A stretch of DNA of 38,706 nt from Spirochaetales bacterium. GTDB lineage: Bacteria; Spirochaetota; Spirochaetia; DSM-2461. A program made the translations under genes and the position numbers. This document shows positions 411-21,459 of the stretch, piece by piece. The stretch is from NCBI GenBank assembly GCA_016936555.1, contig JAFGXR010000060.1, positions 1 to 38,706 of the forward strand. The letters are read 5' to 3'. Under the pieces are notes generated by a model. The model was not told the DNA's origin, did not search any database, and saw only the letters and a program-made list of their open reading frames with translations. Position 1 is the stretch's first letter; each line of letters begins with the position of its first letter.

Positions 411-1265
411 TTATATGGACGAATATAGGCTGAAAGCCCAGTAGAACCCCGCGAGGCAATCCCGGCCCGATGTGGAGCCGTGTCCCGCTGCGGCATGAAC
501 CGCAGATAAAATTTTATTATCTGAATCCGTTGTTTTTATAGTTTCTGCATATTTCAGTATATAGGCAGGAAAACTCCCTCTCAAAGCGGCATAGAGCATG
601 GTTCGCCCCGGAGCCGTCGTTTTTTCGAGTCGCTCTCCGATTTCCTGTTTGTCCGTTTGAAAGGGGCAGATTCCGCATTCCCCGGCCAGAAGTACTCCGG
701 TCAGAAAATCATCTCCAGCCGGTGTAAGCCCCTGTCCGAGACCGACCAGTTTTTCCAGACCCCGAAGAATTCTGTCTTTGCCTGAGATGCAATGGTTTGT
801 GATGTCCCGCGCTTTTCTCTGAAAGATCGTCTCATCTCCGTCCTCATCAGCCAGGAGGGAGAGAAAGCTGTCTCCTTTTTCAAGAATATCCCTGATGATT
901 GCGAACTCTCTGTTTCTGTTCCGTGAGTTGTCCCGCAGAGAGGTAGCGGCTCCTTTCCAGGACGGACAATTTTTATAGGAAATAAGCGTACCGGCCAGGT
1001 TGAGTTTTTCCTCTTCCGTGGAGAAAGCTGAACAGGGATTAGATTTTGCTTCGCCGTCTCCGTCGAAAAGCTCAGGAACCAGCAGACTGAACGCCGTCAT
1101 ATTTTCCCTGTCGGCAATAAGCGACCAGACCAGTCCGCTTTCTCTTTCCAGGAGATTTAGTATACCCCGGTGCCTTGAAAGCTCATCAAATGAAAAGAGG
1201 CCGCTTTGAATAAAACGGCCTCTCAGTTGAGCTTCAATAGGATCAGGCGTCTTCCATTTTGACAT
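411..1265 (-). CDS. allH: DUF2877 protein, AllH/YlbF-like oxamate carbamoyltransferase subunit
   Basis: A 284-residue protein of the DUF2877 family. The signature is GLGQGLTPAGDDFLTG (about residues 175-190) followed near the C-terminus by HGSTSGRD. E. coli YlbF is of similar length and, with FdrA and YlbE, has been assigned to oxamate carbamoyltransferase (AllFGH), which makes carbamoyl phosphate and oxamate from oxalurate in anaerobic allantoin use. Its start overlaps the end of the upstream permease gene by 23 bases and has no clear ribosome site, which suggests translational coupling. The two partner subunits are in the divergent operon at 6398-9375, so the set is split across one control region. 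Whether the substrate here is oxalurate is unknown. Confidence 0.85.
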   Translation of the reverse strand: MSKWKTPDPIEAQLRGRFIQSGLFSFDELSRHRGILNLLERESGLVWSLIADRENMTAFSLLVPELFDGDGEAKSNPCSAFSTEEEKLNLAGTLISYKNCPSWKGAATSLRDNSRNRNREFAIIRDILEKGDSFLSLLADEDGDETIFQRKARDITNHCISGKDRILRGLEKLVGLGQGLTPAGDDFLTGVLLAGECGICPFQTDKQEIGERLEKTTAPGRTMLYAALRGSFPAYILKYAETIKTTDSDNKILSAVHAAAGHGSTSGRDCLAGFYWAFSLYSSI

Positions 1266-2487
1266 CGGGGATGATCAGGTTGAGGATGATTCCCACAACG
1301 GCGGACAGCCCGAGTCCCGCCAGGTTGAAGTTGCCCCAGGAGAACTGAGCTCCGCCCATTCCCAGAACGAGCATGGTGGAGGAGATGATCAGAATCTTGG
1401 GATTGGACAGATTGATCTGAGCCTCAACCATGTTTCTGACACCGATGGATGCAATCATTCCGAAGAGAAGAATGGAGATTCCCCCGATAACCGGACCGGG
1501 AATGGTAACGATGATCGATGTGAACTTGGGAATGAATGCCAGGAAAATGGCGAAGATGGCGGCGATTTCCATAACCACGGGGTTGTAGATTCCCGTCAGG
1601 GCCACGGCTCCGGTATTTTCGCTGTAAGTCGTGTTGGCGGGGCCTCCCATAAGAGCGGAAACCGAAGTGGCGATACCGTCTCCCAGAAGAGTTCTTGTGA
1701 TTCCCGGATCTTTGATAAAGTCTTTGCCGACGACGTTTCCGATAGCCAGAACGTCACCGAAGTGTTCAACCATGGCGACGATGGAGATGGGAACCATGAT
1801 GGATATGGCGTAACCGGAGAACTTGGGTGCCATAAATCCGGGAAGTCCGATCCAGGCGGCTTCCCTGATCGCTGTATAATCGACAACACCGATAATCATG
1901 GAGAAAAGGTAGCCGACGACCAGCGCGAAGAGAACCGGCAGGTTCGAAAGGAACTTCCAGCCGAATTTCGGGAAGGCGATTTTTACGAAAACTCCCGTTG
2001 CGAATGTGATGAGAGCCACGAGCCAGGAGCCGTTTGTGCCGATTTTTTCGACGACGGCGGGAGAATTGACGCCGCTGGCGTTCTGAATGGCCACTCCGGC
2101 CAGCATCAGACCGATGAGAATGATCATCGGGCCTGTTACATAGGGCGGAAGGATTTTATGGAGTGTTTCATACTGTATGAATTTGAAAATGACAGCAACC
2201 ACTACATAAAGCAGACCGGCGATGACGATTCCCCCCGTGGCATAGGCAAGTCCCTGTTCAGCGGAAACAGCGAAAATACCCGGGAGAAAGGCGAAGGAAC
2301 TTCCCAGAAATACGGGAACCTTGGCCTTGGTCAGAATGTGAAAGATGATTGTACCGATACCCGCTGCGAATAAAGTAACGCCAATGTCCAATCCCGTCAG
2401 AAGAGGTACCAGAACGGTGGCCCCGAACATGACGAACGTGTGCTGGATTCCCATGATGACAAGTTTCAAATCCAACTTTTTTTCCAT
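1243..2487 (-). CDS. NCS2/NAT family nucleobase (xanthine/uracil-type) permease
   Basis: A 414-residue membrane protein of the nucleobase:cation symporter-2 family, starting at an ATG with a good GGAGGG ribosome site. Length and residue numbering match UraA closely: VEHFGD places E241, and GGPANTTYSENTG places E290, both substrate-binding positions in UraA. The residue at UraA position 245, histidine in uracil carriers, is aspartate here; aspartate occupies this place in purine carriers such as XanQ and UapA. E290 is uracil-like rather than the glutamine of purine carriers. The binding site is thus mixed, and the substrate is some oxo-purine, oxo-pyrimidine or analogue. It is first in the leftward operon and faces the molybdenum hydroxylase operon. 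Confidence 0.93.
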   Translation of the reverse strand: MEKKLDLKLVIMGIQHTFVMFGATVLVPLLTGLDIGVTLFAAGIGTIIFHILTKAKVPVFLGSSFAFLPGIFAVSAEQGLAYATGGIVIAGLLYVVVAVIFKFIQYETLHKILPPYVTGPMIILIGLMLAGVAIQNASGVNSPAVVEKIGTNGSWLVALITFATGVFVKIAFPKFGWKFLSNLPVLFALVVGYLFSMIIGVVDYTAIREAAWIGLPGFMAPKFSGYAISIMVPISIVAMVEHFGDVLAIGNVVGKDFIKDPGITRTLLGDGIATSVSALMGGPANTTYSENTGAVALTGIYNPVVMEIAAIFAIFLAFIPKFTSIIVTIPGPVIGGISILLFGMIASIGVRNMVEAQINLSNPKILIISSTMLVLGMGGAQFSWGNFNLAGLGLSAVVGIILNLIIPDVKMEDA

Positions 2488-2614: not shown

Positions 2615-2671
2615 TCCTTGATGAATGTTAACATGGTTCCGGGTATTTGCAAAGAAAAACAGGAGAAGGTT

Positions 2672-3553
2672 ATGTTGAATTTTGACTATCGGAGACCTGA
2701 GTCTCTCGATGAAGCCCTGTCTCTGAGAAAAGAATGGGGCGGAAAATCATCACTGCTTATGGGAGGGACCGATCTCTTCCTGGCTATTGAAGAAGAGGTC
2801 CGCCGTCCGGAGCTGCTGATCGATCTGAAAAAAATAAGAGCACTGTCCGGCCTGGAAGAGAAGGACGGGGCGGTTCATATAGGGGCGGCTGTGACCTACA
2901 GCGAACTGATCCATTCCGATCTGGTTCATCAGAAGCTCCCGGGAATCTGGGAGTCCTCGCGGCTGGTCGCTTCGGTGGGCATCCGCAACAGTGCCACCAT
3001 GGTCGGGAATATCTGCAATGCCGTGCCTTCCGCCGAAAGCGCGACGCCCCTGATGATCCGCGATGCGGTGATTCATATCACTTCGGCTTCGGGGAGCCGG
3101 TCGGTTCCCGCTGTGGAGTTCTTTACAGGGCCGCGGAGAACCGTGGTGAAGGATGATGAGATCGTCACTTCCATATCGGTTCCCCTGATGAAGGGAAAAT
3201 TCGGAGAGTCCTATGTGAAGCTGGGCCGTTACAGGGGTGAGGATATAGCCCAGGTGGCCACGGCGGTTCTGGTCGATGAGAACTGGAATTACAGAATCGC
3301 CTATGGAGCGGTCGGTCCCGTTCCCATGGGGATTCCCGGTGCCGAAGCCGTTCTGAAAGGGAAGAAGCCTGCGGCTGATCTGATTGAGAAAGCAAAATCT
3401 GAAGTTCTGAATACCGTATCTCCCATCGGAGATATCCGGGCCAGTAAGGAATACAGGCTCCATATGTGCGCTGTTATGTTCGAAAAAGCGATAGATGCCG
3501 CTGTTTCCCGCATGGAAACCGGCGCTCCCGCATACGGCGCGAGACTGATCTAG
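2672..3553 (+). CDS. Molybdenum hydroxylase FAD-binding subunit (XdhB/CoxM/CutM type)
   Basis: A 293-residue FAD subunit of the xanthine dehydrogenase / CO dehydrogenase family, which passes electrons from the iron-sulfur subunit to an acceptor such as NAD or ferredoxin. The FAD contacts are recognisable as LLMGGTDL (about residues 29-36) and VGIRNSATMVGNICNA (about 105-120). The start chosen is the ATG at 2672, preceded by AGGAG six bases upstream and followed by LNFDYRRPESLDEAL, the usual family N-terminus; an in-frame ATG at 2618 would add 18 unlikely residues and lie inside the leader. It is the first gene of the rightward operon and lies 12 bases ahead of the 2Fe-2S subunit. Confidence 0.93.
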   Translation: MLNFDYRRPESLDEALSLRKEWGGKSSLLMGGTDLFLAIEEEVRRPELLIDLKKIRALSGLEEKDGAVHIGAAVTYSELIHSDLVHQKLPGIWESSRLVASVGIRNSATMVGNICNAVPSAESATPLMIRDAVIHITSASGSRSVPAVEFFTGPRRTVVKDDEIVTSISVPLMKGKFGESYVKLGRYRGEDIAQVATAVLVDENWNYRIAYGAVGPVPMGIPGAEAVLKGKKPAADLIEKAKSEVLNTVSPIGDIRASKEYRLHMCAVMFEKAIDAAVSRMETGAPAYGARLI

Positions 3554-3565: not shown

Positions 3566-4042
3566 ATGGTTAGGGAAATCGAGTTTACATTAAACGGATA
3601 TCATCAGAAAGTGAGCGTGAAGCCCGGTGAGAAACTTCTCGATGTGCTGCGGGACAAGCTGGGTATCACCAGCGCCAAATACGGCTGCGGGAAAGGGGAG
3701 TGCGGGGCCTGTACGGTCAATCTCGACGGGAAAACCGTCCGTTCCTGTCTGATGTACGCCGTGGAAGCCGACGGCTCTGTCATCGAAACCCTCGAAGGTT
3801 TTCAGAGACTGGGCAAGAAGGAAATTCAGGAGATATACCAGAAACACAATGCCTTCCAGTGCGGTTTCTGCGCTCCCGGGTTCATTCTGAGTACCGATGA
3901 GCTCCTCTCTCAGAACCCGGATCCCGATGAGGAGGAGATCAAGGAAGCCCTTGCGGGCAACCTCTGCCGCTGTACGGGCTACAAAAACATATTCTCAGCT
4001 GTCAAGGAGATGGTTGAAATCAGAAAGGGGAGGGAGTCATGA
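3566..4042 (+). CDS. Molybdenum hydroxylase 2Fe-2S subunit (XdhC/CoxS/CutS type)
   Basis: A 158-residue iron-sulfur subunit with two 2Fe-2S clusters. The N-terminal plant-ferredoxin-like cluster uses C41, C46, C49 and C61 (CGKGECGACT). The C-terminal helical cluster uses C99 and C102 (CGFC) plus C134 and C136 (CRC). All eight ligands are present and length is normal. A strong GGGAGGTGAGG ribosome site precedes the ATG. It carries electrons from the molybdenum site to the FAD subunit. Its stop codon overlaps the start of the large subunit by four bases, so the two are translationally coupled. Confidence 0.97.
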   Translation: MVREIEFTLNGYHQKVSVKPGEKLLDVLRDKLGITSAKYGCGKGECGACTVNLDGKTVRSCLMYAVEADGSVIETLEGFQRLGKKEIQEIYQKHNAFQCGFCAPGFILSTDELLSQNPDPDEEEIKEALAGNLCRCTGYKNIFSAVKEMVEIRKGRES

Positions 4043-6384
4043 GCAAGAACACGAAAGTCGTCGGCCACGATGCGGTCCGAATCGATATGGAGGAGAAGAT
4101 CACCGGCGCCGCGCTCTACACGGACGATCTTCCCTTCGGGCCCAATCTCCTTCATATGAGCGTTCTGGCCAGCCCTCATGCCCATGCGGAAATCCTGAAT
4201 ATCGATACTTCTGAAGCGGAGAAGTTTCCCGGAGTAATGGCCGTGGCCACGGGAAAAGACTATCCCCAGAAATTCGGCCTTTACCTCCAGGACAAGTCGA
4301 TTCTGCCGGTGGACCGGGTCCGCTATGTGGGCGAGCAGGTGGCCGTCGTTATCGCCCGGACCAAGGAGATCGCCGACGAGGGATGCAAGCTGATTAAAGT
4401 GGATTACAAAATCCTCGAACCGATTCTCGATGTCAGGGACGCCTTGAAAGAGGACGCCGTTCTGATCCATCCCGATCTGGGCGATTATCAGGTCATACCC
4501 TGGATCAATCCCCAGCCGGGCACGAATATCTCCCATATCCGGAAAATCCGGAAAGGCGATGTGGAGAAGGGATTCGAAGAGGCGGATTTTATTCTGGAGG
4601 ATGAATACCATGTTCCCCATGTGGTTCACGCCTGCATAGAAACCCATATTTCCGTGGCCCGTTACGATTATACGAAGCGGTTAACCATGTGGAATTCCAC
4701 CCAGTCCCCCCATACGCAGCGCCATATCATGGCCAACGCCCTGGGAATTCCCCATAAGGATATCCGGATCATCGCTCCCTACGTGGGCGGCGGTTTCGGA
4801 GGCAAAGCGGGGATCAGCATGGAAGCCCTCACGGTAGCCTGCCAGAAAGTTCCGGGATATCCCGTGAAGCTCCGCTGGTCGAGAAAAGAGGAGTTCCTCA
4901 ATTCGTCGCAGCGTCAGGAATTGAGGGCCACCGTCAAGATGGGCGTTACAAAAGAAGGGAAGATAACGGCGCTCCGCCATATCATGCACTGGGATGTGGG
5001 GGCCTCGGCCGAATACGGAAACAATGTGGTCAACGCCACGGGATTTTCCGCCACGGGACCCTACTATATCCCCAATGTCAGTATCGATTCGGTCGGTGTC
5101 TACACGAACCATCCGCCCTGCGCCGCCTACCGCGGATTCGGCTATTCGGAATTCCACTTCGGCATCGAAAGCCATATGGACCGGATCGCCAAGGCCATCG
5201 GCATCGATCCTGTCGAATTCCGCCGGATCAACGCCATTAAAACCGATGACGAAGTGGCTTACAAATGCCATATGAACCCCTCGGGCATGCTCGAGTGCAT
5301 CGATAAAGTGGCCCAAGCCATCGAGTGGGGCAAGGAGGAAGTTTCCGACGATCCCGATATCGTTATTGCCAAGGGATTCGCCAGCGCCTGGAAAGCGCCG
5401 GCCATGCCTCCCAATGCGGGGTCTTCCGTATTTATTAAATTCAGTGAGGACGGCAGTATAAACGTACTGGTTTCAGGTATGGAAATCGGGCAGGGGCTTC
5501 ACACCGCCGTGGCGAAATTCGCTTCGGAAATCCTCACGGTGCCCCTGAATAAAATCCGGGTGGAACTGCCCGATACGGACAGGAACCCCTATGAATGGCA
5601 GACCGTGGCCAGCCATGAAACCTGGGAGCTGGGTAACGCCACCATCAGGGCGGCCCGCGATGCCAGAGCCAAGATTTTCGATGTGGTCAGCCGCGCCTTC
5701 CATCTGGAAAAAGAGAGCCTTTATCTGGAAGACGGTAAGGTCAAGGACGACCTCGATCCCGATTTCGCCCTTCCCTTCGAGGATTTCGTTATCACCGGAA
5801 TCCAGACCGAGTTCAACACCTGGGTGGGCGGTCCTATCATGGGTATCGGTTCCTTCATACCCGAGTTCACCAATGCCATGGTCGACCCCGACACAGGCAT
5901 GGGCGGTCATCCCAATGTCCACTATACCGTGGGCGCCGGGGCTGTAAAAATCGAACTGAACAAAAAGACCGGTGTGGTGCGGGTCGTTAAAATGGCCGAA
6001 GGCTTCGACTGCGGAAAAGCCATCAATCCCGACCTGGTGAAGGATCAGATCGTGGGCGGATTCATTCAGGGGCTGGGCACGGCACTCTATGAAGTCTGCA
6101 TCTTCGACGACAAGGGGAAAATGCTCAATACCAATTTCACCGACTACAAGATCCCGACCATTCTGGAAATGCCCGATGAAATGATTCCCATCATTGTGGA
6201 AGTGCCCCAGCCCGACGGTCCCTTCGGGGCCAGGGGTATGTCGGAACACACCATGATCCCCGTCATGCCCGCCGTGGCCAACGCCATCGCCAACGCCATC
6301 GGCCTGAGGATAAAGGATATTCCGCTGACTGCCGAGAAGGTGGCCCTGCGGCCTCTGCAGAAAGATTTTGTGGCTGAAAAATGA
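4039..6384 (+). CDS. Molybdenum hydroxylase large, molybdopterin-binding subunit (XdhA/CoxL type)
   Basis: A 781-residue catalytic subunit that would hydroxylate a heterocycle or aldehyde at an sp2 carbon with oxygen from water. Visible motifs are the cofactor loop YVGGGFGGK (about residues 248-256), AYRGFG (about 363-368, around the substrate-binding arginine of xanthine dehydrogenases), GMEIGQGLHT, and the catalytic glutamate in FGARGMSEH (about E736). It is not a CO dehydrogenase, since the Cu-binding active-site loop is not evident. Its neighbours (carbamoyltransferase subunits, nucleobase permease, cyclase-family hydrolase) suggest a purine- or pyrimidine-like substrate. Because the window also encodes the marker set for selenium-dependent molybdenum hydroxylases, a labile selenium at the Mo site is plausible. 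Exact substrate cannot be read from sequence. Confidence 0.95.
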   Translation: MSKNTKVVGHDAVRIDMEEKITGAALYTDDLPFGPNLLHMSVLASPHAHAEILNIDTSEAEKFPGVMAVATGKDYPQKFGLYLQDKSILPVDRVRYVGEQVAVVIARTKEIADEGCKLIKVDYKILEPILDVRDALKEDAVLIHPDLGDYQVIPWINPQPGTNISHIRKIRKGDVEKGFEEADFILEDEYHVPHVVHACIETHISVARYDYTKRLTMWNSTQSPHTQRHIMANALGIPHKDIRIIAPYVGGGFGGKAGISMEALTVACQKVPGYPVKLRWSRKEEFLNSSQRQELRATVKMGVTKEGKITALRHIMHWDVGASAEYGNNVVNATGFSATGPYYIPNVSIDSVGVYTNHPPCAAYRGFGYSEFHFGIESHMDRIAKAIGIDPVEFRRINAIKTDDEVAYKCHMNPSGMLECIDKVAQAIEWGKEEVSDDPDIVIAKGFASAWKAPAMPPNAGSSVFIKFSEDGSINVLVSGMEIGQGLHTAVAKFASEILTVPLNKIRVELPDTDRNPYEWQTVASHETWELGNATIRAARDARAKIFDVVSRAFHLEKESLYLEDGKVKDDLDPDFALPFEDFVITGIQTEFNTWVGGPIMGIGSFIPEFTNAMVDPDTGMGGHPNVHYTVGAGAVKIELNKKTGVVRVVKMAEGFDCGKAINPDLVKDQIVGGFIQGLGTALYEVCIFDDKGKMLNTNFTDYKIPTILEMPDEMIPIIVEVPQPDGPFGARGMSEHTMIPVMPAVANAIANAIGLRIKDIPLTAEKVALRPLQKDFVAEK

Positions 6385-6397
6385 TGAGAGGAAAGTG

Positions 6398-7957
6398 ATG
6401 ATAAAAAGAATTGTTGAAAAAGACCAGTACTTCGATTCGGTCTTTCTGATGTTGATCAACAGTGAGATCAAGGGACTCGAGGGAGTGAGCGACGCCGTCG
6501 TCTCCATGGGGACGGAAATGAACATTCAGCTCCTGAAGGATATGAATTTCGCCGATGATGCGATACTGGCCGCCACACCGAATGACCTGGTTGTCGCGAT
6601 CGAATGCAAAGATGAAGAGACAGGTGAGAAAGCCGTTGCGGCAGTCTATTCCCTGCTCAATAAGAAGAAAGAGAAGAGCTCCGGTCAGATCTACCGGCCC
6701 CGATCCCTGCAGTCTGCGGTAAAGGAAGAACCGGAAGCCAACCTGGTCCTCATTTCCCTGCCCGGAGAGTTCGCCGCCCGGGAAGCCAGGTCCGCTCTGG
6801 AGAAAGGACTCAACGTCATGCTCTTCTCCGACAACGTTTCAGTGGAACAGGAGATTGCCCTGAAAGATCTGGCTGTCGGGAAGGGGCTGCTGATGATGGG
6901 ACCGGACTGCGGGACCGCTATTATAAACGGTCAGCCGCTCTGCTTCGCCAATGTGGTTTCCCCCGGCGATATAGGAATCGTCGGCGCTTCGGGTACGGGT
7001 ATCCAGGAAGTGACCTGCTGTATCGATACTTTCGGCGGCGGGATCACCCAGGCCATCGGAACGGGAGGGCGCGACCTGAAAGACGCCCGGATCGGCGGAA
7101 AAATGATGCTTCTGGGCATCGAAGCGCTGAAAAACGATCCGGCAACGGAGATTCTCGTGGTTATCTCCAAACCGCCTGCGGCCGATGTGGCGGAAAAAGT
7201 CCTGACGGCTCTGGAAAAAACGGGAAAACCGTCAGTTGTCCATTTTATCGGCCAGGAACCGGAGAAGGGGAGAAAGGGGCTCTACTTCGCATCCAGCCTG
7301 GAGGAGACGGCCAGAATCGCCGTCGATCTTTCGAAAGGGGTAAGTCCCTCTTCATCGACCTTTACCATCCCGGAGGCTGAACTCCGGCAGATTGTCGAGC
7401 GGGAAAGCGCGAAACTGGCCCCGTCCCAGAAATATCTGAGGGGGCTCTATACGGGAGGCACTGTGGCCGATGAGGCTCTGATTCTCTTCGAACGGGAAGG
7501 CGTGACGGTCTATTCGAACAATCAGAAAAAAGAGGAGCTCCAGCTGCCCGATCCCTTCGTCTCGAAAGAGCACACCATCGTGGATCTGGGAGATGATATT
7601 TATACGGTAGGCCGCCCCCATCCCATGATAGATCCCTCGACAAGGGAGGACAGAATCAAAATCGAGGCGGACGATCCCTCTATGGCAGTCATGCTCCTCG
7701 ATATCGTTCTGGGATACGGTTCCCATCACGATCCGGCGGGGGCCATTCTCAAAAGCCTGAAAGAGGCGAAGGCCAAAGCCGAAGCAAGAGGGGGATACCT
7801 TCCTATCGTCGCTTCGGTGGTGGGTACGGAGCAGGATTTTCAGGGTTACGGGGCGACCGTCGCCAAACTGGAATCGATCGGCTGCGTCGTTATGCCTTCC
7901 AACTTCCAGGCATCCATGATGTCCCTTGAAATCATGAAAAAGGCAGGTTCCCTATGA
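6398..7957 (+). CDS. fdrA: FdrA/AllF, succinyl-CoA-synthetase-like carbamoyltransferase subunit
   Basis: A 519-residue FdrA protein, a little shorter than the E. coli homologue of about 555. It has the two-part fold of succinyl-CoA synthetase alpha/beta chains: a CoA-binding-like N-terminal half with MMGPDCGTAI (about residue 165) and GDIGIVGASGTGIQEV (about 190-205), then a ligase-like C-terminal half. In E. coli FdrA works with YlbE and YlbF as oxamate carbamoyltransferase. The start at 6398 follows GAGAGGAAAG; the reading frame opens slightly upstream, but only at a TTG inside the preceding gene. Its stop overlaps the next gene by four bases. Annotation as an acyl-CoA synthetase is common but probably misleading. 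Confidence 0.93.
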   Translation: MIKRIVEKDQYFDSVFLMLINSEIKGLEGVSDAVVSMGTEMNIQLLKDMNFADDAILAATPNDLVVAIECKDEETGEKAVAAVYSLLNKKKEKSSGQIYRPRSLQSAVKEEPEANLVLISLPGEFAAREARSALEKGLNVMLFSDNVSVEQEIALKDLAVGKGLLMMGPDCGTAIINGQPLCFANVVSPGDIGIVGASGTGIQEVTCCIDTFGGGITQAIGTGGRDLKDARIGGKMMLLGIEALKNDPATEILVVISKPPAADVAEKVLTALEKTGKPSVVHFIGQEPEKGRKGLYFASSLEETARIAVDLSKGVSPSSSTFTIPEAELRQIVERESAKLAPSQKYLRGLYTGGTVADEALILFEREGVTVYSNNQKKEELQLPDPFVSKEHTIVDLGDDIYTVGRPHPMIDPSTREDRIKIEADDPSMAVMLLDIVLGYGSHHDPAGAILKSLKEAKAKAEARGGYLPIVASVVGTEQDFQGYGATVAKLESIGCVVMPSNFQASMMSLEIMKKAGSL

Positions 7958-9375
7958 AGGCGGATAAAATAAACAGACTTTTTGAAAGCGACCTGAACGT
8001 TCTGAATATGGGGCTGGAATCCTTCAGCGAGACCCTTTCGGGCCGCGGCGTGAGAAGCACCCAGATCGACTGGACGCCCCCTGCCGGGGGGAAAGCCGAT
8101 CTGATCGAGGCGCTGGATTTTCTGGAGACGAGAAAAGAGGATATTGAGAAGGCCAATGCCAAAGCTCTGGAGATCATACAGAAGGGGAAACCGGAAATCG
8201 TCGATATTCAGATCGCCGGAGAGGTCATACCCGGCATGACAGCGAAAACCGTACTCCACGCCGGACCTCCCGTCACCTGGGAGAATATGTGCGGGCCCAT
8301 GAGAGGGGCTGTTATCGGCGGACTGATTTTCGAAGGGCTGGCGGCGGACCGGGAAGAGGCGGAAAAGATGGCGGCTTCGGGGGAGATCCTCTTCGATCCC
8401 TGTCACCATCACAGCACGGTCGGGCCGATGGCGGGAATCGTCACGGCATCCATGCCGGTCTGGGTTCTGAAAAACAGCGTGTACGGCAATACAGCCTTTG
8501 CGACACTCAACGAAGGGCTGGGAAAGGTTCTCCGCTACGGCGCTTTTTCCGATGAAGTCATCGATAAGCTGCGGTGGATGAGAGACGAACTGGCTCCCAT
8601 TCTCAGAAAAGCCCTGAAGCTTCACGGACCGGTGGATATGAAGACTCTTATCGCCCAGGTTCTGCAGATGGGCGATGAAGGGCACAACAGAAACCGCGCG
8701 GGAACCTCTCTCTTTATCCGGGAGATGGCGCCCCATCTGGTTATGCTCGACGAGGACCGGGAGAAAATTGCGAAAGTGTTTAACTTCATGCACCAGAACG
8801 ACCATTTCTTCCTGAATCTGACCATGCCGACCTGCAAGTGCCTGATCGATGCGGCGCGGGATATCGAAAACAGCTCGCTGATCGTAACCCAGGCGAGGAA
8901 CGGAACGGAATTCGGGATTCAGATTTCGGGACTGGGATCGAGGTGGTTTACCGGTCCGGCTTCCAGAGTGGACGGACTCTATCTGCCCGGATACACCGAA
9001 GAGGACGCGGGGCTCGATATAGGAGACTCGACGATTACCGAGACAGTCGGTATCGGCGGATTTGCCATGGCGGCGGCGCCGGCTATCGTCAAATTCGTCG
9101 GGGGCTCCCCGGAAGACGCCATGAAATTTACCCAGGATATGTACGAGATTACCATGGGGGAAAACTCCGTCTTCCAGATCCCGGCGCTTGACTTCAGGGG
9201 GACGCCGACCGGTATAGACCTGATGAAAATCGCACAGACGGGAATTTATCCGGTCATCAATACGGGCATCGCCCACAAGGATCCGGGTATCGGCATGGTG
9301 GGGGCCGGACTGGTCAAGCCGCCGGTCAACTGTTATGAGGATGCGCTGAAAGCTTTCAAGGAAGCATTGAAATAA
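7954..9375 (+). CDS. allG: DUF1116 protein, AllG/YlbE-like carbamoyltransferase subunit
   Basis: A 473-residue DUF1116 protein, the usual FdrA partner. Characteristic stretches include MCGPMRGAVIGG (about 112-123), CHHHSTVGPMAGIVT (about 150-164) and SGLGSRWFTGPASRVDG (about 326-342). It overlaps FdrA by the four bases ATGA, which fits a stoichiometric complex. In E. coli the homologous protein YlbE is one of the three subunits of oxamate carbamoyltransferase; the third, DUF2877/AllH, is at 411-1265 on the other strand. No carbamate kinase, which would turn carbamoyl phosphate into ATP, is in this window. Confidence 0.92.
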   Translation: MKADKINRLFESDLNVLNMGLESFSETLSGRGVRSTQIDWTPPAGGKADLIEALDFLETRKEDIEKANAKALEIIQKGKPEIVDIQIAGEVIPGMTAKTVLHAGPPVTWENMCGPMRGAVIGGLIFEGLAADREEAEKMAASGEILFDPCHHHSTVGPMAGIVTASMPVWVLKNSVYGNTAFATLNEGLGKVLRYGAFSDEVIDKLRWMRDELAPILRKALKLHGPVDMKTLIAQVLQMGDEGHNRNRAGTSLFIREMAPHLVMLDEDREKIAKVFNFMHQNDHFFLNLTMPTCKCLIDAARDIENSSLIVTQARNGTEFGIQISGLGSRWFTGPASRVDGLYLPGYTEEDAGLDIGDSTITETVGIGGFAMAAAPAIVKFVGGSPEDAMKFTQDMYEITMGENSVFQIPALDFRGTPTGIDLMKIAQTGIYPVINTGIAHKDPGIGMVGAGLVKPPVNCYEDALKAFKEALK

Positions 9376-9394
9376 TTATACGAAGGAGAAAAGA

Positions 9395-10252
9395 ATGAAA
9401 ATTGTTGATTTAACCATTCCATTGGGGATAGGAACACCGCCCTGGCCGACATACGAACCGCTTCAGGTCAAGTATTTCAAGAGACTGGCTCCCAACGGAG
9501 CCAACGGGCAGATCGTGACCCATTCCAACCATATCGGTACCCATCTCGATGGAGAGATTCATTTCTACACTCCGGGAAAAGATATCGCCTCCCTCGATTT
9601 TGACTTTCTGGTACACGAAGGGGTCGTGGTCGACCTTTCGGACTGTGTCGAGGACTACAGCATCTACACCTCCAAAATGGTTGAGGAAAGAGTGGAAGTG
9701 AAAGAGGGGGATATTCTCATCATCAACACGGGTTATCACAAATTCGGATGGGATCAGCCGACCGCCGATGAAGTGCGCTACATGATCAAGCACCCCGGTC
9801 CCGACAGGGAATTCGCCGAGTGGGCCAAGAAGAAAAAACTCCGGTGGATCGGTGTGGACTGCGGAAGCGCCGACCATCCCTTCAATACGAAAATACGCGA
9901 CTGGATGCCCAAAGAGGCGAAGCAGTGCGATGCCTATTTCCAGAAGAACTACGGCAAGGGACTGGAAGAGGTTTTCTCCGATGACAAGTATCAGCTGATG
10001 CACCTGGAGATGTTTAATCACCATATCCTCCACGCCGAGTGCCTTGGCGGCGATATGGACCTTCTCAACAATCAGAGAGTGACCATCGGATGCTTCCCCT
10101 GGCGTTTTGTCGACGGAGAGTCGAGCATTTCCCGTATCGTCGCCATGGTGGACGACGACAAGTACGACGAACTGATGAAAAAGAAAGCCCGGTGCGGCCT
10201 TACTAAATTCGGTGATGTCACCGGCGGCGGAAACGAGTTTCTGCACTCATGA
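9395..10252 (+). CDS. Cyclase-family metal-dependent hydrolase (kynurenine formamidase/isatin hydrolase fold)
   Basis: A 285-residue member of the Cyclase family (PF04199). The metal-binding signature HIGTHLDGEIH supplies H46, H50, D52 and H56, preceded by the usual N-terminus IVDLTIPL. Relatives are kynurenine formamidase and isatin hydrolase, which hydrolyse amide bonds of N-formyl compounds or cyclic imides using Mn or Zn. It has no signal peptide, so it is cytoplasmic. Its place directly after the molybdenum hydroxylase and carbamoyltransferase subunits suggests hydrolytic opening of the hydroxylated ring. A strong ribosome site (GAAGGAGAA) precedes the start. The exact substrate is not predictable. 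Confidence 0.9.
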   Translation: MKIVDLTIPLGIGTPPWPTYEPLQVKYFKRLAPNGANGQIVTHSNHIGTHLDGEIHFYTPGKDIASLDFDFLVHEGVVVDLSDCVEDYSIYTSKMVEERVEVKEGDILIINTGYHKFGWDQPTADEVRYMIKHPGPDREFAEWAKKKKLRWIGVDCGSADHPFNTKIRDWMPKEAKQCDAYFQKNYGKGLEEVFSDDKYQLMHLEMFNHHILHAECLGGDMDLLNNQRVTIGCFPWRFVDGESSISRIVAMVDDDKYDELMKKKARCGLTKFGDVTGGGNEFLHS

Positions 10253-10273
10253 TTTTTTTTAAAGGAGAAAATT

Positions 10274-10963
10274 ATGGCTATTGATAAAATGGAACAATCA
10301 TTAAGACCTCCCCAGCTGGATCTTAAACCCTTTCCCGCCAAGATTATTACTCTGGCCAATGGAGAGGAAATGGTGGTCCGCGAAGTGAAGCGCGAGGAAG
10401 TCGGAGTCCTTCTGGGAACCATTCAGCCCCTTATGGGCGTTCAGAAAGATTTTTATGATATCGTCGCATCCAGAATGTATGCGGAAATACTCGGATGGTT
10501 CGAATACCGTGTGGCCAACGAGTTCGTCCTGGTCGGAGCGATCAACGGAGAAATAGCCGGAATCGTCAACAGCCGCCTGATCGACGGAAAAACGGGTATG
10601 AGCTATCACACCATGACCATCAAGAGAGGCCTCAGGATCGGGGCACAGCTGTTCGCCGCTAAAATGGAGCACCATATCGATATTCTGGGCAATGACGAAG
10701 TTCATATCGTGGCGGAAAGCCCCAACGGATTCAAGAGATGGATGATCGAATACGCTCTCGAAGACAGATCATCCCGGTATCCGGCTCTTCATCACGAGCT
10801 GGGGGGAGTCCCCACTTTTACGCTGACCAGAGAGCTTTGGGAACGGGTCAAAGCTGACAAATGCACGGGAACCCGTCCTGTGTCTCCGGAAAAACTGGCT
10901 ACGGCAGATAAGCTGAAAATGCCGTCCGAGTATCCCCAGATTCCGGGATTCAAGAGAGGCTGA
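10274..10963 (+). CDS. Uncharacterised protein with a GNAT-like acyltransferase core
   Basis: A 229-residue cytoplasmic protein that I do not recognise by name. The middle (about residues 85-165) resembles a GNAT N-acyltransferase: a strand FVLVGAINGEIAGIV, a following beta strand, a helix after RGLRIGAQLF in the position of the acyl-CoA pyrophosphate loop, and a last strand VHIVAESPNGFKRWM. The N-terminal 35 and C-terminal 55 residues are proline-rich extensions without clear domains. It lies between the cyclase and the thiolase-like gene, two bases before the latter, so it is firmly part of the operon. It could transfer an acyl group to a pathway amine, or be a structural relative with another role. 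A good AAAGGAGAA ribosome site precedes it. Confidence 0.6.
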   Translation: MAIDKMEQSLRPPQLDLKPFPAKIITLANGEEMVVREVKREEVGVLLGTIQPLMGVQKDFYDIVASRMYAEILGWFEYRVANEFVLVGAINGEIAGIVNSRLIDGKTGMSYHTMTIKRGLRIGAQLFAAKMEHHIDILGNDEVHIVAESPNGFKRWMIEYALEDRSSRYPALHHELGGVPTFTLTRELWERVKADKCTGTRPVSPEKLATADKLKMPSEYPQIPGFKRG

Positions 10964-10965
10964 AT

Positions 10966-12174
10966 ATGAGAAATGTGTCCATTGTCGGAATCGGGCACAC
11001 CGTTTTCGGCAATCTGAGTGATTTTGATCTTGTCGATGTTATGGCTTTCGCCTCGGGCAATGCTCTGGACGATGCGGGAATCCGCGAGGACCGGAAGATT
11101 ATCGAGCAGGTTTTCGTGGCCAATATGGGAGGAGGGATTATCAATCACCAGACGGGGATCGCCTCCTCTCTGGTCAGCCGGATGGATATGGAACCGGCCA
11201 TGGCCGAACTGGTGGAAAACGGGCCGGCCAGCGGGGCGAGTGCCGTGAAGTTGGGTTATATGGCCATTGCCAGCGGCATGGTCGATGTGGTTATGGTTAC
11301 CGGCGGGGAACTGATGCGATCGGTTACGGGCTGGGAGGGGACCGACTTCGTCGCGTCTCTTCTCCATCCCGAGGCTGAGTACAACTACGGACTGACGCTC
11401 CCGGCATACGGTGGCATGTTCACCCGCATATATATGGAACGCTATGGACTTACCGAACGGGACCTGGGGCTCATCGCCGTAAAGGACCATCAGAACGGGG
11501 CCAAGAATCCCTTCGCCCATGTGCGGGTACCCTGCACGATCGAAGCGATTCATGACAGCGAGAATGCCCATGTTATCAACAACTATGTGGCGGAACCCTT
11601 GAGAATGTACGGCATGTGTCCCGTTTCCGACGGAGCGGCCTCGTTGATTCTCTGCGCCGAGGATTCGCCGAAAATGAAGTATTTTACCAAACAGACTCCG
11701 ATTCGCATCACCGGGATCGGGTCGGCTACGGACACCCACTGCGTTCATAACCGGAAGGATCCGCTCGTTCTCGATGCGGTCCGTCTGGCGGCGGAACGGG
11801 CCTATGCCATGGCGGGGCTGAAAGCGGAGGATATCTCCTTTGCGGAGCTCCACGATGCCTTTGTCATACTGGAACTGGCCATATCCGAGGAAGTCGGCTT
11901 TTTCGAACGGGGCAAATCGGCTGAGGCTTTGCGCAACGGCGTGACAGCTATCGACGGCGCCAAGCCGATCAACACATCGGGAGGGCTCAAGTCCAAAGGC
12001 CATCCGGTCGGCGCTACCGGTGTCTCCCAGGTTTTCGAGCTGGTCAAACAGCTCCGGGGGCAGGCGGAAAAAGAAGGCCGTCAGGTTAAGAATGCGAAAC
12101 ACGGCATGGCTGTGAATTTCGGGGGGTTCGGCAATAATGTGGTGGCGGTTATCTGCTCAAGGAGGGACGCATGA
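10966..12174 (+). CDS. Thiolase-fold protein (SCP2-thiolase-like) lacking the nucleophilic cysteine
   Basis: A 402-residue member of the SCP2-type thiolase group. It keeps the LHDAF motif (H296) and the C-terminal GGLKSKGHPVGATG (H346). At the place of the catalytic cysteine, usually read as (E)xxCASG, it has ENGPASG, so the nucleophile is replaced by proline P87; the codon is ccg. Ordinary Claisen/thiolysis chemistry through an acyl-enzyme is therefore unlikely. The next gene, overlapping by four bases, encodes a DUF35 protein, the standard partner of this thiolase group. Thiolase-fold enzymes with DUF35 partners include sterol side-chain aldolases such as Ltp2, so a retro-aldol-type C-C cleavage is an attractive but unproven alternative. 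Confidence 0.88.
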   Translation: MRNVSIVGIGHTVFGNLSDFDLVDVMAFASGNALDDAGIREDRKIIEQVFVANMGGGIINHQTGIASSLVSRMDMEPAMAELVENGPASGASAVKLGYMAIASGMVDVVMVTGGELMRSVTGWEGTDFVASLLHPEAEYNYGLTLPAYGGMFTRIYMERYGLTERDLGLIAVKDHQNGAKNPFAHVRVPCTIEAIHDSENAHVINNYVAEPLRMYGMCPVSDGAASLILCAEDSPKMKYFTKQTPIRITGIGSATDTHCVHNRKDPLVLDAVRLAAERAYAMAGLKAEDISFAELHDAFVILELAISEEVGFFERGKSAEALRNGVTAIDGAKPINTSGGLKSKGHPVGATGVSQVFELVKQLRGQAEKEGRQVKNAKHGMAVNFGGFGNNVVAVICSRRDA

Positions 12175-12563
12175 TTGATTTCAGTGCCTACGGGGTCAAG
12201 ACTCCCGAAGTTAAGGCAGTCAAATGTCCGTCCTGCGGAAAACTGCATTATCCCGCTCCCATGATCTGCAATAAATGCGGCGAGAGGAGAGACCCTTCCG
12301 GTGTCATTTTCAAGCACTGGGAGACCGTTTCCCTCTCGGGAGAATGCACGTTACTCGCCTGGACCAGAGTGTATGCTCTGCCCGACGGATTGGATATGCA
12401 GTATCTCCTCTTCGGAATTGTGGAATTTCCCAACGGCCTTCGGGCCAGTGGAAGACTCGAGGTCGATCAGCCGGTTACGGGTATGAAGGTGAACGCCCGG
12501 GCTGAGACGATGGACAACTCCAAAGGGAAGGAGTTCGACGGGTTGATTTTCGGGGATTTATAG
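12171..12563 (+). CDS. DUF35 zinc-ribbon / OB-fold protein, partner of the thiolase-like protein
   Basis: A 130-residue DUF35-family protein. The N-terminal rubredoxin-like zinc ribbon has two pairs, CPSC (residues 19-22) and CNKC (33-36). The C-terminal part (about 50-130) is the acyl-CoA-associated OB fold. Such proteins bind to SCP2-like thiolases and shape their substrate tunnel. The start overlaps the thiolase stop by ATGA, as expected for a complex made in fixed ratio. It is the last gene before a strong terminator. Confidence 0.92.
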   Translation: MIDFSAYGVKTPEVKAVKCPSCGKLHYPAPMICNKCGERRDPSGVIFKHWETVSLSGECTLLAWTRVYALPDGLDMQYLLFGIVEFPNGLRASGRLEVDQPVTGMKVNARAETMDNSKGKEFDGLIFGDL

Positions 12564-12581
12564 AACACTCGTTTACTATCG

Positions 12582-12616
12582 GCGGAGCTGCAGTAAGAAT
12601 GCAGCTCCGCTTTTCT
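12582..12616 (+). terminator. Rho-independent terminator of the molybdenum hydroxylase operon
   Basis: A perfect 11-bp stem, GCGGAGCTGCA (12582-12592) paired with 12600-12610, with a 7-base loop GTAAGAA and followed by TTTT. It lies 19 bases after the DUF35 stop codon. There is no T-run on the opposite side, so it acts on rightward transcription; the convergent YhcH gene ends just beyond it. Confidence 0.9.
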
Positions 12617-12620
12617 GATT

Positions 12621-13079
12621 TTACATTTTAATTTTTACAACGAGTTTCTTCACTCTACAGGACTCTTTCCCTGGAATTGTACATCCGGGCATATGTGCTT
12701 CGCCGGGGTAGAATATGGAGTAATACCCGGCATTGAGCCGGCACTGACTTCGTTCCGTCGGCTTGTATTTTTCAATATCTTTATCCAGTCTGTAGGGTTC
12801 CTGAACTGTCAGATCTTCCTTTTCGCCAAACCCTATCATTTCAAATCCGCTTACAATATACTGAATATCTATGTATTGCCTGTGGGTTTCAAAGAATTTT
12901 TCGTGATAATCGGCTGTATCGTATTCCTGAATAAGAATAAAAAGATTCTCTCCCTCCAGTTCGTATCGTCCCGGTTCTTTTAAATACAAATCTGTATTAC
13001 GGATATAATTGAAAGCCTTTTTAAAGGATGGATGGAAATCTTCATATCGCTCTGAAATTTTTATATGATCAATAATCAT
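12621..13079 (-). CDS. YhcH/YjgK/YiaL-family protein (sugar anomerase-like)
   Basis: A 152-residue cupin-like protein of the YhcH/YjgK/YiaL (DUF386) family. The signature appears as HRQYIDIQYIVSGFEMIG (about residues 66-83) and FYPGEAHMPGC (about 123-133), supplying metal-binding His and Glu residues. Characterised relatives act on sialic acids or related sugars as anomerases, and YiaL sits in a ketogulonate gene cluster. It is the last of three leftward genes with KDG kinase and KDPG aldolase, so a role in handling sugar-acid anomers is likely. An AAGGAGGAT-like ribosome site precedes the ATG. Confidence 0.88.
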   Translation of the reverse strand: MIIDHIKISERYEDFHPSFKKAFNYIRNTDLYLKEPGRYELEGENLFILIQEYDTADYHEKFFETHRQYIDIQYIVSGFEMIGFGEKEDLTVQEPYRLDKDIEKYKPTERSQCRLNAGYYSIFYPGEAHMPGCTIPGKESCRVKKLVVKIKM

Positions 13080-13091
13080 ACAATCCTCCTT

Positions 13092-14186
13092 CTAACGCTT
13101 AACCCGGCCGGAGGAATTTCCTCTCATTAGGGAAATCACTTCATTTCGGGTCGAGTAATTGAAATCCCCTTTGATGGAGTGGCAGAGACAGGAGGCTGAA
13201 ACGGCATAGGACAGGGCTTCCTTCATATTGTCTTTAAACTCATTATCGGTCAGGGCGTAAATCAAACCGGCTGAAAAGGAATCACCTCCTCCCACTCTGT
13301 CGACAATAAATTTGATCTGATAAGGTTTGTATTCTCCCTCAGACATAGGGGCGAAAGATGCTGAATCGTTTTTGCTGTCATAGAGCATGGCACCCCAGTT
13401 ATTATGACTCGCCGAAAGACTTTCTCTAAGGGTAATGGCTACTTTACCGACATTTGGAAACTGTTCAACAATTCTGCGGGCAACTTCGGGGTACCGTTCG
13501 ATTTCAAGATGTCCGCTCTCCACATCGCTATTTTCTGTTTTTATTCCAAGGATATCCCATGCGTCTTCTTCATTGCCTATAACCACATCTACATAAGGAA
13601 GCATTTTCCGCATGGTTTTTTCCGCCAGATCCCGAGGTGTGAGAGATTTGTCCCATCTCCATAGCTTCTTCCTGAAATTCAGGTCGCAGGAAACGGTGGC
13701 ACCCTGCTCTTTAGCCTTTTTTACTGCCATAAGAGCTGCTTCTGCCGCATTAACAGAAATGGCAGGGGTAATCCCGCTGATGTGAAACCACTGCGAATCA
13801 CTGAAAATAGCATCCCAGTTATAGCTCTCTCCGGACATTTGGCTGACAAGAGAACCTTCCCTATCATAAATAACGTTGCTGGGACGTTGATTTGCCCCCG
13901 TTTCCAGAAAATACAGACCCAGACGGCCTTCTGCCCGGATAATGAACGACGTATCAATCCCGAACCGACGGACAGAATCGAGACAGGCTTCCCCCAGATC
14001 ATTTTCAGGCAGAGCCGTGACATAGCGGGTTTCCCTTCCCATCATCTGCAATGATGCGGCTACGCTTCCTTCAGCCCCGGCAAAGGAAATCTGCAGGTTT
14101 CCCGGCATTGACTGGCGGAATCGCATAAATCCTTCCGGTTCGATCCGGCCCATTATCTCTCCGAAACAAACAACCTTTTTTCCCAT
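13092..14186 (-). CDS. kdgK: 2-keto-3-deoxygluconate kinase, PfkB family
   Basis: A 364-residue PfkB/ribokinase-family kinase. The N-terminus GKKVVCFGEIMGRIEP, the loop FAGAEGSVAASL (family pattern GGaxxNvA) and the C-terminal anion-hole motif VGGGDSFSAG with catalytic D302 are clear. It would phosphorylate 2-keto-3-deoxygluconate to KDPG, which the adjacent aldolase cleaves. The start at 14186 is preferred: the sequence TAATG joins it to the aldolase stop with one shared base, and GAGGTAAGAGG precedes it. A longer frame runs back into the aldolase gene but has no family similarity there. Confidence 0.88.
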   Translation of the reverse strand: MGKKVVCFGEIMGRIEPEGFMRFRQSMPGNLQISFAGAEGSVAASLQMMGRETRYVTALPENDLGEACLDSVRRFGIDTSFIIRAEGRLGLYFLETGANQRPSNVIYDREGSLVSQMSGESYNWDAIFSDSQWFHISGITPAISVNAAEAALMAVKKAKEQGATVSCDLNFRKKLWRWDKSLTPRDLAEKTMRKMLPYVDVVIGNEEDAWDILGIKTENSDVESGHLEIERYPEVARRIVEQFPNVGKVAITLRESLSASHNNWGAMLYDSKNDSASFAPMSEGEYKPYQIKFIVDRVGGGDSFSAGLIYALTDNEFKDNMKEALSYAVSASCLCHSIKGDFNYSTRNEVISLMRGNSSGRVKR

Positions 14187-14845
14187 TATCCTCTTACCTC
14201 CCGCAGTATTCTGTATGCTTCGGCGGCATTTTTTCCGATTGTCTTCCAGTCTTCTGCCTGAATGAGAGGCCTCGGTGCTATCCATGAGCCGCCCAGAGCG
14301 AGAACTTCTTCCATTTCCAGATATTCGTGTATATTGTCGGGTTTCAATCCGCCGAGGGGAATATAGGAAAGATTCAGAAAACTGTAGGGGGCGTTTATTC
14401 CTTTCAGATATTTAACTCCCCCCATGGCTTCGGCATGGAAAAACTTCAGAACGTTACAACCATTTTCAACAGCCCCTTCCAGTTCCGAGGGAGTTGAAAT
14501 CCCCGGGCTGAAGGGAAATTTCTCCGATGCTGCTTTCTCGACAACCCGCCGATTGAATCCCGGTGCAACACCAAAGGCGGCTCCTGCCGAATTGACTTCT
14601 ACTACCTGTGCAGGAGAGAGAACAGTTCCTGCTCCTGCCATAATCTCCGGTACTTCTCTGCGGATGCGTCTGAGTGATTCAAGTGCTGTTTCAGTTCTGA
14701 GAGTCAGTTCAATAGTATTCACACCATTTTCCAGCAGAGTTTCTGCCAGGGGTACAGCCATATCGGGATTATCGATTATCAATACAGCGATAATCCCGGC
14801 TTTTTTCAGATTTCTCTTCATTTCCTCCGGTATGGCTACTTCCAT
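14186..14845 (-). CDS. eda: 2-keto-3-deoxy-6-phosphogluconate / 4-hydroxy-2-oxoglutarate aldolase
   Basis: A 219-residue class I aldolase splitting KDPG into pyruvate and glyceraldehyde 3-phosphate. The Schiff-base lysine is K134 in VLKFFHAEAMGG and the catalytic glutamate E46 in IELTLRT. Where the family usually has KFFPAE, this protein has KFFHAE. The ATG at 14845 is chosen because TTGGAGGACAAG lies just before it; the frame could also open at that TTG. It heads the eda-kdgK-yhcH operon and diverges from the IclR gene, whose product probably controls it. Confidence 0.93.
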   Translation of the reverse strand: MEVAIPEEMKRNLKKAGIIAVLIIDNPDMAVPLAETLLENGVNTIELTLRTETALESLRRIRREVPEIMAGAGTVLSPAQVVEVNSAGAAFGVAPGFNRRVVEKAASEKFPFSPGISTPSELEGAVENGCNVLKFFHAEAMGGVKYLKGINAPYSFLNLSYIPLGGLKPDNIHEYLEMEEVLALGGSWIAPRPLIQAEDWKTIGKNAAEAYRILREVRG

Positions 14846-14882
14846 CTTGTCCTCCAAATATCAATTTTATGAAAATTACCAC

Positions 14883-14954
14883 ATAATGAGACAGGTGTCA
14901 ATATAATGGGACAAAATGCTTATTAAATGAATATGTTGTCTATATAATGAGATA
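14883..14954. promoter_or_regulatory. Phased direct repeats between eda and the iclR gene
   Basis: Three copies of ATAATGRGAYA, all in the same direction, lie at 14883-14893, 14903-14913 and 14944-14954. Start-to-start distances are 20 and 41 bases, about two and four helical turns, so the copies face the same side of the DNA. Each contains a TATAAT- or CATAAT-like core, and the third could be the -10 box of the rightward transcript (TTATTA, 17 bases, TATAAT at 14943-14948). An IclR-type regulator is the likely binder. Confidence 0.55.
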
Positions 14955-15006
14955 TGTTATTGTGAAAATCTGGACAATTTCCTGTAAATCCATTATTTCT
15001 TTTAGT

Positions 15007-15762: not shown

Positions 15763-15777
15763 AAGCGGCAGCGGATT

Positions 15778-18856: not shown

Positions 18857-18900
18857 TTGGAAATTACCAATCTTAATAGATCTCCCTTTCATGTAAATAT

Positions 18901-18956
18901 CCATCATAATAAGTAAAGAACCATCATTGATGATTCTCAAATTCAGCCAATACAAT
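18901..18956 (+). promoter_or_regulatory. Putative activator repeats and promoter of the TTT transporter operon
   Basis: CCATCAT occurs at 18901-18907 and again at 18921-18927, exactly 20 bases apart. The second copy abuts and shares one base with a -35-like TTGATG (18927-18932), which is 18 bases from TACAAT (18951-18956). AraC-type activators typically bind direct repeats at two-turn spacing with the near site against -35, so this is a likely YesN-type target. Confidence 0.5.
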
Positions 18957-18982
18957 AATCACAAGAGTAGAGGAAAGACCTG

Positions 18983-19936: not shown

Positions 19937-19982
19937 CTTGTGATTTTTGGTCCAAGGACCTGAATATAAGGAGATATATTTC

Positions 19983-21448: not shown

Positions 21449-21459
21449 GAGTTTGTTAA

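Follow-up and report, generated by a model that had tools for sequence, protein, structure and literature searches.

The 38,706-nucleotide stretch analysed here (positions 1 to 38,706 of contig JAFGXR010000060.1 of a Spirochaetales bacterium, hereafter the window) encodes a thiolase-fold protein with proline in place of the nucleophilic cysteine. We use the name ThiolaseP for this protein and its orthologues, and we refer to ThiolaseP, the GNAT-fold protein encoded directly before it and the DUF35 protein encoded directly after it as the triad. We found that the loss of the cysteine is conserved, that the gene belongs to a conserved cluster, and that within the spirochaete class of the window ThiolaseP and the genes for a CaiB-type coenzyme A (CoA) transferase, an amidase and a biotin/Na+ decarboxylase are mutually exclusive. 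Our reading, to which we give a probability of roughly 0.4, is that the triad replaces the amidase, CoA-transferase and decarboxylase as the last section of an anaerobic catabolism of nucleobase-type rings, in which a malonyl-type product would undergo decarboxylation or enolate chemistry without an acyl-enzyme.

The translation of the window reads VENGPASG around codon 87 (CCG, 11224-11226), and phmmer alignments placed P87 against the nucleophilic cysteine of the solved thiolases 7yvy and 6esq. Proline was present in 60 of 60 distinct orthologues covering the site (49-100% identity), including those beside fdrA, where the preliminary description of this DNA had proposed to look. Its claims that proline replaces the nucleophile within ENGPASG, and that a thioester acyl-enzyme is excluded at this place, were borne out by the alignment and by the invariance of the proline. 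Thioester formation at the P87 position is impossible, and a reaction different from thiolysis is likely for ThiolaseP. All four proline codons were used (CCG 26, CCT 17, CCC 13, CCA 4), which together with the 60 concordant orthologues rules out a sequencing error or a lone mutation. Both catalytic histidines and the DUF35 partner were kept, as had been described: H296, D297, F299, H346 and N384 were each invariant in the 58 covering orthologues, and a DUF35 gene was observed in 53 of 55 ThiolaseP loci, with both misses at contig ends. The second (acid/base) cysteine of SCP2-type thiolases, found in their HDCF motif, was also lost, with alanine in 57 and proline in one of the 58; the resulting HDAF is not specific to the family and is shared by many Cys-type homologues. 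A 436-residue antisense open reading frame opposite the thiolase gene (10792-12102) was taken as spurious, and antisense frames masked real genes in several GC-rich loci.

The association of proline with close orthologues, and of cysteine with more distant homologues, was seen in several searches. Among 148 genomes of the same class, seven places with 70-100% identity had proline and seven at ~30-37% had cysteine. In 301 genomes from a different phylum, a proline-independent search gave a two-peaked result, with five places at 50-56% identity, all with proline, and 34 weaker places, of which the 25 that were read all had cysteine. The genome_contigs scan yielded 58 loci, 55 of them orthologues (51-91% identity) and all of these with ENGPASG; the scan relied on two peptide patterns, one including the proline, and was hence biased, and the proline-independent searches agreed with it. 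The sequences of L049 and L074 do not match the proline-containing pattern, yet have the proline. We left out of the counts three partial loci of the scan with 19-30% identity (L076-L078), out of the Cys-type set the partial or poorly aligned L091, L092 and L094-L096, together with L093 (glycine at the nucleophile) and L010 (length filter), and out of the alignment sets L074 and L075 (contig end). No relative was found in the viral contigs searched.

The proline proteins formed a single clade against 33 Cys-type homologues (support 100/100, stem of 0.78 changes per site), a grouping for which the tree program flags the meeting of long branches. Positions separating the clade from these homologues included E81, N85, G86, P87, S92, Y139, C218, H258, F385, F388, N390 and N391. 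Because both the motif at the cysteine position and the C-terminal glycine loop hold such positions, the two were altered together; the loop reads NFGGFxNN in ThiolaseP and N(I/V)GG(S/T)G in SCP2-type thiolases. Members of the clade occur in records labelled Spirochaetota, Caldiserica, Verrucomicrobia, Eisenbacteria and Anaerolineales; one carrier, Sphaerochaeta halotolerans (L035), is in culture. The excluded L093 (genome G148) is a further Cys-less thiolase homologue, 33% identical, in which phenylalanine replaces the GHP histidine. An AlphaFold2 model of ThiolaseP from a 43-sequence alignment (A3, built from the window and 42 of 53 full-length orthologues; for alignment A4 the window and 32 of 52 were used) had a pLDDT of 88.6 and a pTM of 0.93. 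Its best matches in the PDB were 7yvy, 6et9, 6esq and 4yzo, and the TM-scores of 0.84-0.90 to 7yvy and 6esq (normalised by query length) assign it to the thiolase fold. The model places G86-P87 immediately N-terminal of a predicted helix at 89-102, the site of the cysteine in thiolases.

Cyc-A, the Cyclase-family hydrolase encoded upstream of the triad, was found at E <= 1e-90 in 58 of 394 genomes of the class (74-100% identical); unusually conserved across many families, it could be used as a marker gene for the pathway. All 58 Cyc-A loci were read, of which 16 contained ThiolaseP (seven kinship families) and 42 did not. The GNAT-fold gene was present in each of the 16. The other 42 contained a class III (CaiB-type) CoA-transferase in 25 cases, mostly as the gene next to the cyclase, an amidase-signature enzyme in 21 (both in 20) and an MmdA/MmdB homologue in eight, with at least one of the three in 31. 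CaiB, amidase or Mmd genes were thus seen in 0 of 16 ThiolaseP loci and in 31 of the 42 others (Fisher p 1.6e-7). When loci with at least 1.5 kb past the cyclase were considered, the CoA-transferase was observed in 0 of 15 ThiolaseP loci, and at least one of the three genes in 25 of 31 others. No kinship family had both endings (seven families against seven, with two having neither; one-sided p 0.003). In three genomes (G134, G116, G488), mmdA, a biotin carrier gene and the gene of a Na+-pump beta subunit lie between XdhA and FdrA, and for G134 the models TIGR01117 and TIGR01109 gave 790 bits (under the cut-off of 999) and 511 bits (over the cut-off), respectively.

The same pattern was observed genome-wide for mmdA homologues (E <= 1e-80), which were present in 36 of the 42 carriers of Cyc-A without ThiolaseP, four of the 16 with ThiolaseP, and 126 of the 336 genomes of the class that lack Cyc-A. 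Compared with this last group, mmdA was enriched in carriers without ThiolaseP (p 2e-9) and not in carriers with it (p 0.43); counted by genus, the homologue was found in 19 of 19 non-ThiolaseP and 4 of 9 ThiolaseP genera (p 0.0013). We also observed loci of one kinship family (f23: L154, L155, L167-L171) that have the molybdenum hydroxylase, FdrA, AllG and Cyclase genes and in which none of the three known endings was seen over the stretch covered; some of these loci stop at a contig edge.

The remaining genes of the cluster suggest what the triad may be acting on (Table 1). All three subunit families of oxamic transcarbamylase, FdrA/AllF, AllG and AllH, were identified in the window, each over its model cut-off, and every genome with ThiolaseP also had AllG, seven of seven in the sample of 148 from the class (26 with AllG) and five of five in the 301 of the other phylum (56 with AllG). 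Neighbourhoods were read for 57 loci, 21 of them from the class of the window, and the AllG genomes of the other phylum were covered in part. A carbamate kinase stands inside the cluster of Gracilinema caldarium (L041; 374 bits, cut-off 358), and the genome of the window has two, outside the cluster. The NCS2 permease scored 346.9 with a uracil permease model (cut-off 477), 260 with RutG and 208 with PbuX. As the best models for the XdhA-like subunit are far below their cut-offs, its substrate cannot be read from sequence. In G590 (L232, ~5415-17837), FdrA-AllG-Cyclase is followed by a CoA-acylating methylmalonate-semialdehyde dehydrogenase (MMSDH, 545 bits), a hydantoinase/carbamoylase-family amidase, a PreT-like protein, PreA (499 bits), dihydropyrimidinase (503 bits) and an aminotransferase, the three scores all being over cut-off; judged by its gene content, this locus appears to join reductive pyrimidine degradation to the AllFG core.

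Table 1. Features of the window around ThiolaseP (positions in nucleotides; scores in bits).
Feature	Position	Strand	Evidence
ThiolaseP, Cys-less SCP2-type thiolase-fold protein	10966..12174	+	402 aa + stop; Thiolase_C_1 138.7, Thiolase_N 82.9
G86-P87 codons, where thiolases have Ala-Cys (nucleophile)	11221..11226	+	G86/P87 in 60/60 distinct orthologues; Ala-Cys in 33/33 aligned Cys-type homologues
C218 codon, invariant Cys in PVSDGAA loop, candidate displaced nucleophile	11617..11619	+	58/58 covering orthologues; Cys also in 3/33 Cys-type homologues
H296 codon of HDAF, matching HDCF of SCP2 thiolases and YDxF of aldolases	11851..11853	+	58/58 covering orthologues
H346 codon of GHPxGAT (GHPVGAT in window)	12001..12003	+	58/58 covering orthologues
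DUF35 partner, Zn ribbon + OB fold	12171..12563	+	130 aa; directly after ThiolaseP; zf-ChsH2 27.8, cut-off 23.2
GNAT-fold protein without sequence family	10274..10963	+	229 aa; directly before ThiolaseP; AlphaFold2 pLDDT 91.7
Cyc-A, Cyclase-family (PF04199) metal hydrolase	9395..10252	+	109.6, cut-off 23.1
AllG, oxamate carbamoyltransferase subunit homologue	7954..9375	+	PF06545 328.8, cut-off 27
FdrA/AllF homologue	6368..7957	+	NF004760 529.7, cut-off 433
AllH homologue	411..1265	-	PF11392 73.7, cut-off 25
NCS2 nucleobase permease, closest to uracil permease	1243..2487	-	TIGR00801 335, over cut-off
Molybdenum hydroxylase FAD subunit, XdhB-like	2618..3553	+	profile match
Molybdenum hydroxylase 2Fe-2S subunit, XdhC-like	3566..4042	+	profile match
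Molybdenum hydroxylase catalytic subunit, XdhA-like	4039..6384	+	best models all far under cut-offs

The substrate and activity of ThiolaseP we infer as follows. The permease would import uracil, thymine or a similar pyrimidine, which the molybdenum hydroxylase would oxidise (uracil to barbiturate) and the Cyclase-family hydrolase would open to ureidomalonate; this would be the simplest chemistry, and it has the order of the barbiturate route, which runs from uracil through barbiturate to ureidomalonate. A pyrimidine is suggested because the permease is of the uracil type and because the G590 locus has PreA, dihydropyrimidinase and MMSDH. The AllFGH homologues would then phosphorolyse the ureido group, giving carbamoyl phosphate and the mono-amide of a dicarboxylic acid (malonamate), with ATP gained from carbamoyl phosphate via carbamate kinase; this step would parallel, with C3 compounds, the conversion of oxalurate to oxamate. 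The amidase, CoA-transferase and MmdA-type decarboxylase of the relatives suggest that the release of carbamoyl phosphate leaves the mono-amide of a short dicarboxylic acid. MmdA-type decarboxylases act on malonyl- or methylmalonyl-type CoA esters. The amidase, the CoA-transferase and the decarboxylase would take the amide to acetyl-CoA in the relatives, and the triad would do so in the window. ThiolaseP would bind a malonyl-type thioester at the place where thiolases bind CoA, and there H296, H346 and the N384-F-G-G-F loop would polarise the thioester carbonyl, CO2 would leave and the enolate would be protonated. Since decarboxylation needs polarisation of the thioester and no acyl-enzyme, the cysteine could be lost. 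The GNAT-fold protein may make or pass on the CoA ester from the amide, which is the least certain step.

In the DUF35 protein the cysteines 19, 22, 33 and 36 are conserved. At E 0.001 the GNAT-fold protein matched no family in Pfam or NCBIfam, and it was placed by its fold, with Z-scores up to 13.8 (8gxk_B: root-mean-square deviation 3.1, 166 aligned) and a Foldseek E-value of 5e-7. Its gene was present in 53 of 55 ThiolaseP loci, with none detected in L064 and L073, and three loci from another phylum (L162, 7134-7859, - strand; L184; L195) have homologues close to FdrA/AllG and no ThiolaseP. GNAT-fold proteins that decarboxylate malonyl-CoA exist, namely malonyl-CoA decarboxylase and the GNAT domain of CurA (excerpts of PMC3701320), and they offer a precedent for the partner. 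No match to the malonyl-CoA decarboxylase family was found in Pfam up to E 10, where filters drop weak matches, or among the listed folds, nor was the His-Ser/Thr dyad of that family located in the partner. A suspected likeness of the stretch ESPNGFKRW to malonyl-CoA decarboxylase was not borne out when Pfam, PDB profiles and folds were searched. By analogy with these proteins, the decarboxylase could be the GNAT-fold partner, and ThiolaseP would then be the CoA-handling enzyme.

Several observations weigh against our reading. In the excerpts of PMC11326118, oxamate and oxalurate are the only compounds with which AllFGH is characterised, and the best model for the CaiB protein is a CoA:oxalate CoA-transferase (380 bits, below the cut-off of 522), which fits a C2 acid. 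The locus counts include kin genomes and are not phylogenetically independent, so that the p-values overstate independence. None of the three replacement genes was observed in 11 of the 42 non-ThiolaseP loci (some cut by contig ends), and 4 of 16 ThiolaseP genomes retain an mmdA homologue. The exclusion also leaks outside the class. A nitrilase-type amidase adjoins the triad in L045, L047, L050, L055 and L063, whose records are labelled Verrucomicrobia, Spartobacteria, Opitutia or Lentisphaerae and in which FdrA/AllG were not found in the stretches covered; an amidase-like match was seen in L049 and L058; and in G148, G203 and G269 of the 301-genome phylum ThiolaseP coexists with a nitrilase encoded in the AllFG cluster, the GNAT-fold gene not being found in the DNA read (G203 in part). 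Amide hydrolysis and ThiolaseP are therefore not strictly exclusive, and decarboxylation is favoured over amide cleavage as the part played by ThiolaseP itself.

The oxalate-type matches raise the question of a C2 pathway, in which the ring would be opened to oxalurate, AllFGH would yield oxamate, and the triad would process oxamate or oxalyl-CoA. AllFGH is known as oxamic transcarbamylase (excerpts of PMC11326118), in keeping with such a route, as is the CaiB match. We consider it unlikely, because oxalyl-CoA decarboxylase was over cut-off in none of the 58 Cyc-A genomes (best 239 of 739 bits), MmdA-type decarboxylases stand in or beside the cluster, and the permease is uracil-like. A rather unlikely alternative is a non-covalent cleavage that depends on CoA, in which the triad would split the amide or a C-C bond directly (by reverse-GNAT amidolysis or a non-covalent retro-Claisen reaction on ThiolaseP) and decarboxylation would be spontaneous or take place elsewhere. 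It would suit the near-constant company of the GNAT-fold gene, the amidase and CoA-transferase that stand where the triad would in most non-ThiolaseP loci, and the GNAT-fold homologues near FdrA/AllG without ThiolaseP. However, conversion of the amide to a thioester runs uphill in the absence of a pull, genomes with the triad have mmdA much less often as well, and L064 and L073 have ThiolaseP with no GNAT-fold gene detected.

Other alternatives concern the active site. C218 lies in a loop that we take to be the one lining the CoA site in thiolases, and its invariance would fit a displaced nucleophile, with an acyl-enzyme at C218 and a protein that is still a thiolase or acyltransferase. This is quite improbable: three of the 33 homologues with a normal nucleophile also have cysteine at that position, the other 30 having serine or proline, and the former nucleophile has become an invariant proline, not a tolerated small residue. 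The preliminary description had suggested a different C-C bond reaction, such as retro-aldol cleavage like that of sterol aldolases. A reaction other than thiolysis is indeed likely, but cleavage of a beta-hydroxyacyl-CoA in the retro-aldol manner of Ltp2 and Sal is very unlikely. ThiolaseP shares with these enzymes the fold class (match to 6ok1 at 7.2e-38, family profile), the DUF35 partner and the absence of the nucleophilic cysteine. Their catalytic tyrosine, the first residue of YDHF in Ltp2 and YDCY in Sal (excerpts of PMC12329534), corresponds to His296 in all 58 covering orthologues, by motif reading and not by residue alignment to Ltp2 or Sal, and the change Y302F abolished the activity of Sal (same source). 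Beside the family we recognised neither an enoyl-CoA hydratase nor a steroid gene, for which no systematic search was made, and the neighbourhood points instead to a malonyl-type acid or amide that is decarboxylated or undergoes CoA chemistry. It is very unlikely that ThiolaseP is a non-catalytic scaffold merely holding the GNAT-fold and DUF35 proteins together; loss of the nucleophile would fit this, but the invariant H296, D297, F299, H346 and N384 would not.

Decarboxylation by ThiolaseP can be set beside several known systems. The best sequence and fold matches were SCP2-type thiolases with DUF35 (the acetoacetyl-CoA thiolase-HMGCS-DUF35 complex, 6esq/6et9, and 7yvy of P. furiosus), which share the fold, length, GHP histidine, HD(A/C)F histidine and DUF35 link and differ in the nucleophile, the glycine loop and the operon. 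ST0096 of Sulfolobus tokodaii (4yzo, a 'thiolase-like protein'), the third-best sequence match (31-32% identity in Foldseek), also has no nucleophilic cysteine (serine in the alignment). In the KSQ/CLF-type malonyl decarboxylases glutamine replaces the cysteine, whereas ThiolaseP has proline, and the likeness is one of working only. TbSLP, the Cys-less SCP2-thiolase-like protein of T. brucei (5ab4-5ab7), gave a weak profile match (5.7e-21) and has YDCF where ThiolaseP has HDAF; we know of no DUF35/GNAT operon for it. TbSLP is reported to decarboxylate malonyl-CoA at a very low rate (excerpts of PMC12329534) and provides a precedent for a Cys-less thiolase site as a decarboxylase. Sal has glycine at the nucleophile position (same source). 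The AllFGH system of E. coli, whose models are matched by the homologues in the window, converts oxalurate to carbamoyl phosphate and oxamate (excerpts of PMC11326118); its operon serves allantoin, whereas the homologues in the window are joined to Cyclase, molybdenum hydroxylase, NCS2 permease and triad. No paper linking a thiolase to FdrA/AllG, or on ThiolaseP or its pathway, was found in the open-licence literature searched.

Three further groups of genes were observed in the window. YedF, SelD, an EF2568-type cysteine desulfurase and an XdhC-YqeB fusion (24904-29561, - strand), all except the XdhC part over cut-offs, form a maturation set of selenium-dependent molybdenum hydroxylases, and the hydroxylase of the cluster may therefore carry labile selenium. 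A tungstate/molybdate-type ABC transporter (TupA 232 bits, below cut-off) is followed by MoeA-like and MOSC-like genes (29738-33827, + strand; MOSC and the other ABC parts labelled by eye). A sensor kinase paired with a response regulator adjoins the cluster, as does a TctABC-like uptake system that has two binding proteins (15778-22947, + strand; labels by eye).

The known Cys-less thiolases (Ltp2, Sal, TbSLP) are single cases, and their chemistry is under debate. ThiolaseP represents an entire clade with proline fixed at the nucleophile position, and its operon suggests a substrate class. ThiolaseP proteins should not be annotated as acetyl-CoA acetyltransferases. It is possible, though doubtful, that the triad is a new cofactor-free decarboxylase system on the thiolase fold, ending a previously undescribed, energy-conserving fermentation of pyrimidines to acetyl- or propionyl-CoA that has at least three interchangeable endings; as read from the gene content, these would be amidase with CoA-transferase, a Na+-pumping MmdA-type decarboxylase, and the triad. 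If our reading is true, a type of decarboxylase would be added and the AllFGH transcarbamylase family would gain a pathway outside allantoin. It would also outline how anaerobes may gain ATP from pyrimidines, possibly with a Na+ gradient in some lineages.

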